A model generated the notes under the pieces. The model had not been told where the DNA came from. It did not search any database and saw only the letters and a list, made by a program, of their open reading frames with translations. Made by a program: the position numbers and the translations under genes. This document shows, in pieces, positions 35,743-37,135 of a stretch of DNA of 64,000 nucleotides. This stretch comes from Planctomycetota bacterium (GTDB lineage Bacteria > Planctomycetota > Phycisphaerae > UBA1845): NCBI GenBank assembly GCA_024276605.1, contig JAJRWX010000009.1, positions 1 to 64,000 of the forward strand. The letters are read 5' to 3'. Each line of letters opens with the position of its first letter. Position 1 is the stretch's first letter.

Positions 35743-36236
35743 TCCTTCACTACCACGTTCGGCAATCTAGTTTGACAAAAAAATGTTCGTAACCCGTTTT
35801 CTAATAAGAACTTTCGTGCCCTCACGTCTGAGAGTTATCGGCTGTGCGCGATCATGCAGATTAGATTCCCCATTTCATATCATGCCATTCACATCCGTAA
35901 TCACCAAAACTGTCACGGATTGTAGACCGTCAACATCATCATACAACCCATTGGACTATTCAAATCACTAATAACTGTCACATCCAAGCGTGATTCAACC
36001 CTATCAATACTGATACGTGCCATCTAAGAAGCAAGATCGACCAACAAGACGTTTTCACTAATGATCCCCATAAATGGGTGGTTCGGACAGACAAGTGTTT
36101 GCCTGTGTCTTCCAGGACTTCGACCCATCGGGCCGGTCAGTGAACCATCCCCCCCATTGAGTATATCAACCAAGACCACTACAATAAATCTTAACCGAGC
36201 TTGTGATATGAATATTTTTCGGAGGTAATTGATAAG
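35743..36236. other. 494-base spacer between the EPS operon and the DUF3179 gene
   Basis: No gene is supported. The right half holds a nested inverted repeat (36074-36128). A GGAGG ribosome site for the DUF3179 gene lies at 36221-36225. Promoters for both divergent genes must lie here, but none was clear. Confidence 0.5.
36074..36128. repeat. Nested hairpin upstream of the DUF3179 gene
   Basis: The outer arms ATGGGT/ACCCAT enclose an inner imperfect stem GACAGACAA...TTGCCTGTGTC. The inner part resembles the stronger hairpin at 37106-37135 on the other side of the gene. Confidence 0.4.
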
Positions 36237-37067
36237 ATGAACAAGAAAAACATTCGTGTAGTCAGCTCGGTCACATCATGCTACGGATGGGGCACCACCA
36301 TGACAGGCCTGCTGATATTGTGCACATCACTCCCAACCATGGCAGATGGCGACACGGGTAAGAAACAATTTCGTGGTCTGATCGGGCCTCATAGCAAGAA
36401 AGTCAAAACCGACAACGGCAAAACTATGCTCTATGGCGGCAAGCGCGGCAGCGACCCCACAAAACCGGGTGGATTCTGGTATGACTACACCGGTTCTCCC
36501 ATCCCAGCCGCCGAGCTTCAATTCGGCATCGGCAAGGACGCTATACCAAGCATTGACGACCCCATGTTCGTCTCACCTGACGATCCGCGACTTCTCAAAT
36601 ACATTCCACCCAGCCCCTACCGCAAGAACCAACGTCCAAAATCAAATGACGAAATACACGTCATCGGCTATACCCACGGCAGCGTCGCGCGGGCTTATCC
36701 CGTCTCCTTGCTCGATCGACACGAGTTGGTCAACGACAACATTGACGGCAAACCGGTCACAGTCGGTTGGTGACCACTTGCTCAACTGTCCGTAGTTCAC
36801 GGACGCGAACATAACGGTTCCACCGACGAATTTGGTGTTAGTGGCTATGTTTATAAGAACGTATTCATCATATTCGACCGCAAAACAGAAAGCCTGTGGT
36901 ATCCACTAGACGACACAAAATGGACGGCCATCTCCGGACCGCGCAAGGGCGAAACTATCCCCTTCATCGAAGAACCACCGGTTATACCGCTGGGACAATG
37001 GCGCAAAAAACACCCCAACACAACCGTATTAATCGGCTCCAAAAAACGAATCGAACAACACGATTAG
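36237..37067 (+). CDS. DUF3179 secreted protein with in-frame TGA, candidate selenoprotein
   Basis: Read through the TGA at 36771-36773, the frame gives 276 residues. An N-terminal signal sequence ends near residue 36. Then come the DUF3179 (PF11376) landmarks: KDAIPSIDDPMFVSPDDPRLL, VIGYTHGSVARAYPVSLLDRHELVNDNIDGKPVTVGW, TGA, PLAQLSVVHGRE, FGVSGYVYKNVFIIFDRKTESLW. In the family, as I recall it, the site reads VTYCPLCGS, so the TGA (codon 179) stands exactly where the first cysteine is. The following 97 codons stay open and conserved to a TAG. GGAGG lies 11 bases before the ATG. A 5-6 bp stem-loop begins 13 bases after the TGA. The alternatives are a Cys-to-stop mutation or a sequencing error. 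The biochemical role of DUF3179 is unknown. Confidence 0.7.
36787..36805 (+). promoter_or_regulatory. Candidate bacterial SECIS stem-loop
   Basis: TGTCCGTAGTTCACGGACG folds as UGUCC/GGACG (one G-U pair) with the loop GUAGUUCAC starting with G, or with one more G-C pair and a 7-base loop. The loop begins 18 bases after the TGA, within the usual window for bacterial SECIS elements. The stem is short, so the evidence is suggestive. Confidence 0.45.
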
Positions 37068-37105: not shown

Positions 37106-37135
37106 GACATGGGCAAGCAACAGCTTGCCCGTGTC
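37106..37135. terminator. Strong hairpin between convergent genes
   Basis: GACATGGGCAAGC/GCTTGCCCGTGTC forms a 13-bp stem (one G-U pair) around an AACA loop, 38 bases after the DUF3179 stop and 141 bases from the methyltransferase stop. It lacks a T run, so it may be a repeat element rather than a classical terminator. Confidence 0.5.

Follow-up and report, generated by a model that had tools for sequence, protein, structure and literature searches.

In a window of 64,000 nt from the genome of a Planctomycetota bacterium, which is the whole stretch of DNA analysed here, we identified a complete gene (36237..37067, + strand) that, on comparison with its homologues, very probably encodes a selenoprotein, a 276-aa exported protein of the DUF3179 family with a decoded in-frame TGA codon (Sec179) and a terminal TAG. 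For codon 179 itself, decoding as selenocysteine is next to certain, as the first-pass annotation of the window had proposed; it is supported by the conservation of TGA at this column, the exchange with Cys in near relatives, a hairpin behind the TGA and the presence of the Sec machinery. SelB together with Sec-tRNA-Sec would bind the hairpin 13 nt past the UGA, and selenocysteine would be inserted at residue 179 in place of termination. With standard gene calling, this gene and dozens of similar ones would be broken in two at the TGA.

The interrupted frame and its product

The ORF at 36237-36773 comprises 178 codons and is terminated by TGA (36771-36773), beyond which 97 further codons are open in the same frame up to a TAG at 37065-37067; this was exactly the arrangement described in the first-pass annotation. 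An open run of 97 codons is expected by chance with P ~0.014 at the composition of the window, which is weak evidence taken alone. The read-through protein matches the DUF3179 domain (PF11376) over residues 100-270 (36534..37046, + strand; E 1e-32) with a score of 114 bits against a gathering cut-off of 27, and each half, also above the cut-off, matches PF11376 separately (E 4e-11 and 1.5e-12). Because the homology to PF11376 is found on both sides of the TGA, and not because of the length of the open run, we concluded that this is a genuine interrupted frame. None of the NCBIfam models matches the protein.

Direct reading of the sequence revealed an RBS-like GGAGG (36221..36225, + strand) 11 nt upstream of the ATG, and the translation begins with a putative signal peptide (36237..36344, + strand) consisting of a basic start, a hydrophobic core and an ending ...LPTMA/DG. 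The TGA codon (36771..36773, + strand), predicted to be selenocysteine 179, lies in the motif GW-U-PLA, and residue 179 is the sole Cys/Sec of the protein outside the signal-peptide-like segment, where two Cys are located. The AlphaFold2 model is confident (mean pLDDT 95.8, pTM 0.91); a search of the PDB by fold gave nothing better than E 1.0, whether for the thioredoxin fold or for any other solved fold, and a search by sequence gave no solved relative.

Short palindrome-like elements (CAAG...TTGCC..TGTC) occur at 36092-36109 and 37106-37135, one on each side of the gene; the window contains no other match to them, against 0.03 expected. In the genus of the window the neighbouring genes are syntenic and, judging by their translations, belong to an exopolysaccharide/exosortase-like locus, and no neighbour gene or operon partner is conserved across the order.

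Conservation of the TGA codon and of the hairpin behind it

A total of 114 genomes of the order were searched, and DUF3179 matches were obtained in 55 of them; all 43 matches in the order scoring above 180 bits contain an internal TGA. Gene-by-gene reading placed a TGA exactly at the codon column of the window gene in 67 planctomycete homologues (GW-U-PL or a close variant), which come from dozens of genera and have intact frames on both sides of the TGA. TGA-bearing DUF3179 genes were found in 55 of the 392 genomes of the phylum. Two separately assembled relatives from the same genus carry the identical TGA, and in the close relatives there are no random stops at other positions of the gene. 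Viral relatives were not found by pattern search, and the plasmid collection contained only distant (<60%) homologues, mostly haloarchaeal.

One internal stop in one assembled genome is what a pseudogene or a sequencing error would also give, the TGA having then arisen by nonsense mutation or from a miscalled base. Against this, 67 genes representing dozens of genera have the TGA at one and the same column, with intact frames on both sides and the conserved hairpin behind it, and a second DUF3179 copy on another contig of the same genome (C86) carries the TGA as well, though it is itself truncated. The chance that the TGA is such an artefact is negligible, and we regard this explanation as ruled out by the comparative data. 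The second copy (L010, G000:C86:1-1949) reads GW-U-PLAGLSVVYGR and has an intact hairpin; shortly past the TGA its frame enters IstB-type transposase-like sequence at the contig end.

It had also been suggested that the TGA takes the place of a Cys of the family, and the homologues bear this out. TGA stands at the column in all close relatives, and Cys in the near relatives L115, L114 and L119; the exchange can be seen directly between L117, TW[U]PLANLAVVYSRKI, and L115, TW[C]PLANLAVVYNREI (context TWUPLANLAVV and TWCPLANLAVV, respectively). In a tree of 83 rows, a fully supported branch (100/100) separates 45 TGA rows, which include the window gene, from the remaining rows, and L117, a TGA gene, adjoins three Cys rows with a support of 100/97. 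The window-like members of the 45-row all-TGA clade have the motif GWUPL[A/V/D/S].

The stem-loop that had been noticed 13 nt after the TGA is real and is longer than originally described. The candidate bacterial SECIS hairpin (36787..36805, + strand) consists of 7 pairs, formed by the arms 36787-36793 (UGUCCGU) and 36799-36805 (ACGGACG), and a 5-nt loop at 36794-36798 (AGUUC). Folding of the window sequence alone gave an unexceptional hairpin (z -1.05), so that a SECIS is not proved by single-sequence folding; its support, which is strong, comes from conservation across the 67 homologues. The hairpin lies at a constant spacing behind the TGA in nearly all of them. In these genes 98.1% of the stem cells are paired, and compensatory double changes occur in 6 of the 7 stem pairs, with 52 doubly changed cells against 10.5 in shuffles. 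The pairing signal was destroyed when the arms were slid, and RNAalifold, run unguided, recovered the identical stem. The mean number of stem pairs is 6.87 of 7 in the TGA genes compared with 3.1 of 7 in 31 non-TGA homologues, among which only L114, a Cys form, has at least 6 pairs (7, including G-U); its hairpin is perhaps a SECIS relic. Constraint is also visible at synonymous sites: in 40 of 42 cases the 3'-arm Gly is encoded by GGA (background 0.28, P 5e-20). No Rfam family matches the hairpin. Hairpins of related apex (GGUU) are located past the TGA of the SelD gene of this genome (further downstream) and past those of its two deiodinase-like genes.

Sec decoding machinery in the genome

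The first-pass annotation had pointed to selA, selB, selD and tRNA-Sec as the genes to be looked for, and all four are present in the genome of the window (4.5 Mb, 96% complete). tRNA-Sec scored 64.8 bits, above its cut-off, in agreement with ARAGORN, which reported the anticodon TCA; SelA scored 569 bits, and SelB and SelD were above their cut-offs, SelD having an in-frame TGA of its own in the motif CAGUAGK. In the phylum sample, SelA was detected in 50 of the 55 genomes with TGA-DUF3179, five having none detected, versus 42 of the 75 with non-TGA forms only (Fisher 1e-5, a value that ignores shared ancestry). Within the order such co-occurrence is uninformative, because SelA is near-universal there (93 of 114 genomes over the cut-off); the few TGA genomes of the order without detected SelA are incomplete assemblies.

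A frame that is conserved through a UGA does not by itself reveal which residue is inserted, and the codon might be read through by a reassigned code or by near-cognate suppression, giving a residue other than Sec. We consider this very improbable, since TGA is an ordinary stop for 8 of the 25 long frames in the window, the Sec pathway of the genome is complete, the hairpin occupies the position of a bacterial SECIS and near relatives have Cys at the column. On the same grounds code reassignment was rejected.

Possible role and relation to known selenoproteins

Every one of the 98 homologues examined carries a Sec or Cys in the (U/C)xxC site, either at position 0 or at +3. Where position 0 is S, N or D, Cys occupies +3 without exception, and the +3 Cys is missing from most of the Sec forms in this set; over the 67 TGA genes the +3 residue is A in 29, C in 15, V in 11, D in 6, E in 4 and S in 2, and in the window protein it is Ala. 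In the two subclades of the window gene (42 sequences) no Cys/Sec column other than 179 is common to at least two proteins. Conserved polar residues include H162, E163, N166, D167, R190, D214 and W221. In a group of long non-Sec Phycisphaerae paralogues (L074-L093), the Sec column is occupied by C, S, N or D and the +3 Cys is invariant, as if the chalcogen could occupy either end of the motif.

The Cys/Sec position of DUF3179 may be a redox or a metal-binding site, as had been proposed, and the conservation pattern favours a single-selenol site. With Sec179 as the only conserved chalcogen of the mature exported protein, a single-selenol redox enzyme seems most likely. Its selenolate, aided by the conserved His162/Glu163/Asn166/Asp167 and Arg190/Asp214, would attack an oxidised or halogenated substrate and, with no resolving Cys inside the protein, would be regenerated by an outside thiol or a partner protein. 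We lean towards redox catalysis rather than metal binding. Sec179 might instead be a metal or metalloid ligand in, for example, a protein that binds or carries soft metals (Hg, As, Cu); a chalcogen at 0 or +3 in every homologue, with C, S, N or D tolerated at 0, fits a ligand loop, and in at least three genomes at least one gene of an arsenosugar-type cluster (TIGR04167, TIGR04282, TIGR04283) is nearby. This alternative is rather unlikely, given that a second conserved Cys is missing from the clade of the window gene and that the domain found fused to Sec-DUF3179 is deiodinase-like and also matches redoxin/AhpC-TSA profiles. The arsenosugar-type genes, encoding radical SAM ArsS (TIGR04167) and glycosyltransferases (TIGR04282/TIGR04283), are at most a few kb away from Sec-DUF3179 at L129, L136 and L140.

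The fusions occur in three genomes that represent two families (f8, f2) within the order; in these, a deiodinase-like domain (GSYTUPPF; PF00837 E ~1e-30) and a C-terminal Sec-DUF3179 domain form a single chain of 855, 686 or 1083 residues (L131:4967-7531, + strand; L041:56-2113, - strand; and L153:3579-6827, - strand, respectively). Each has two TGA and no other stop, so two Sec per chain are predicted; the fusion suggests that both selenium sites serve one pathway. The genome of the window has two separate deiodinase-like TGA genes (GSYTUPPF), L154 (G000:C16:2506-2997) and L161 (G000:C6:31837-32331), one of which adjoins selB. Across the order, presence of the one selenoprotein family (deiodinase-like) is associated with that of the other (Sec-DUF3179), with 23 genomes in common out of 35 and 37 (P 9e-7, uncorrected for ancestry); within the family of the window the association is weak (P 0.026, likewise uncorrected). 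A deiodinase-like protein is a possible, still tentative, partner of Sec-DUF3179. It is rather doubtful that Sec-DUF3179 is a new exported selenoenzyme working with deiodinase-like selenoproteins and that, in Planctomycetota, the two Sec sites, sometimes on one polypeptide, make up a periplasmic relay for redox reactions or dehalogenation. For a domain whose fold is unmatched, the three two-Sec fusions are a concrete lead on its role, and Sec as the only conserved chalcogen makes this role directly testable.

The first-pass annotation knew of no described DUF3179 selenoprotein, but this hint of novelty did not hold: DUF3179 (PF11376) is tabulated in two reviews (PMC9312934, PMC13188914) as a predicted bacterial selenoprotein family with the motif UxxC/T, with credit to Zhang and Gladyshev 2007 for an Olavius algarvensis symbiont, and the plasmid collection includes a public record naming a 'DUF3179 domain-containing (seleno)protein'. 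The selenoprotein family itself is therefore not new, and it is the branch that appears to be new. In the open-licence literature, as screened by titles, the beginnings of abstracts and term matches, we found no description of the branch with UxxA/V/D, of its single-selenol character, of its wide occurrence in Planctomycetota or of the double-Sec fusions. The present set is a predicted selenoprotein family that is widespread in Planctomycetota and departs from the published motif.

Of the known systems, the bacterial deiodinase-like selenoprotein (PF00837; NF038285 'deiodinase family protein') also contains TGA and is fused to the DUF3179 branch in three genomes, but it is an unrelated domain with the motif GSYTUPPF and is a separate gene in the genome of the window. 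In one genome (L032/L129) DUF547 (PF04784) precedes the Sec-DUF3179 domain in a fusion, yet it too is an unrelated domain, and no Sec was seen there. With the published DUF3179 selenoproteins the window protein shares the Pfam domain and a Sec within a UxxC-type motif, here as the first residue of (C/U)PL(C); compared by the published motif UxxC/T, it differs in having UxxA (with V, D, S or E also occurring at +3 in the planctomycete set), in having no second Cys and in belonging to a clade in which, among the genomes sampled, only TGA forms occur.
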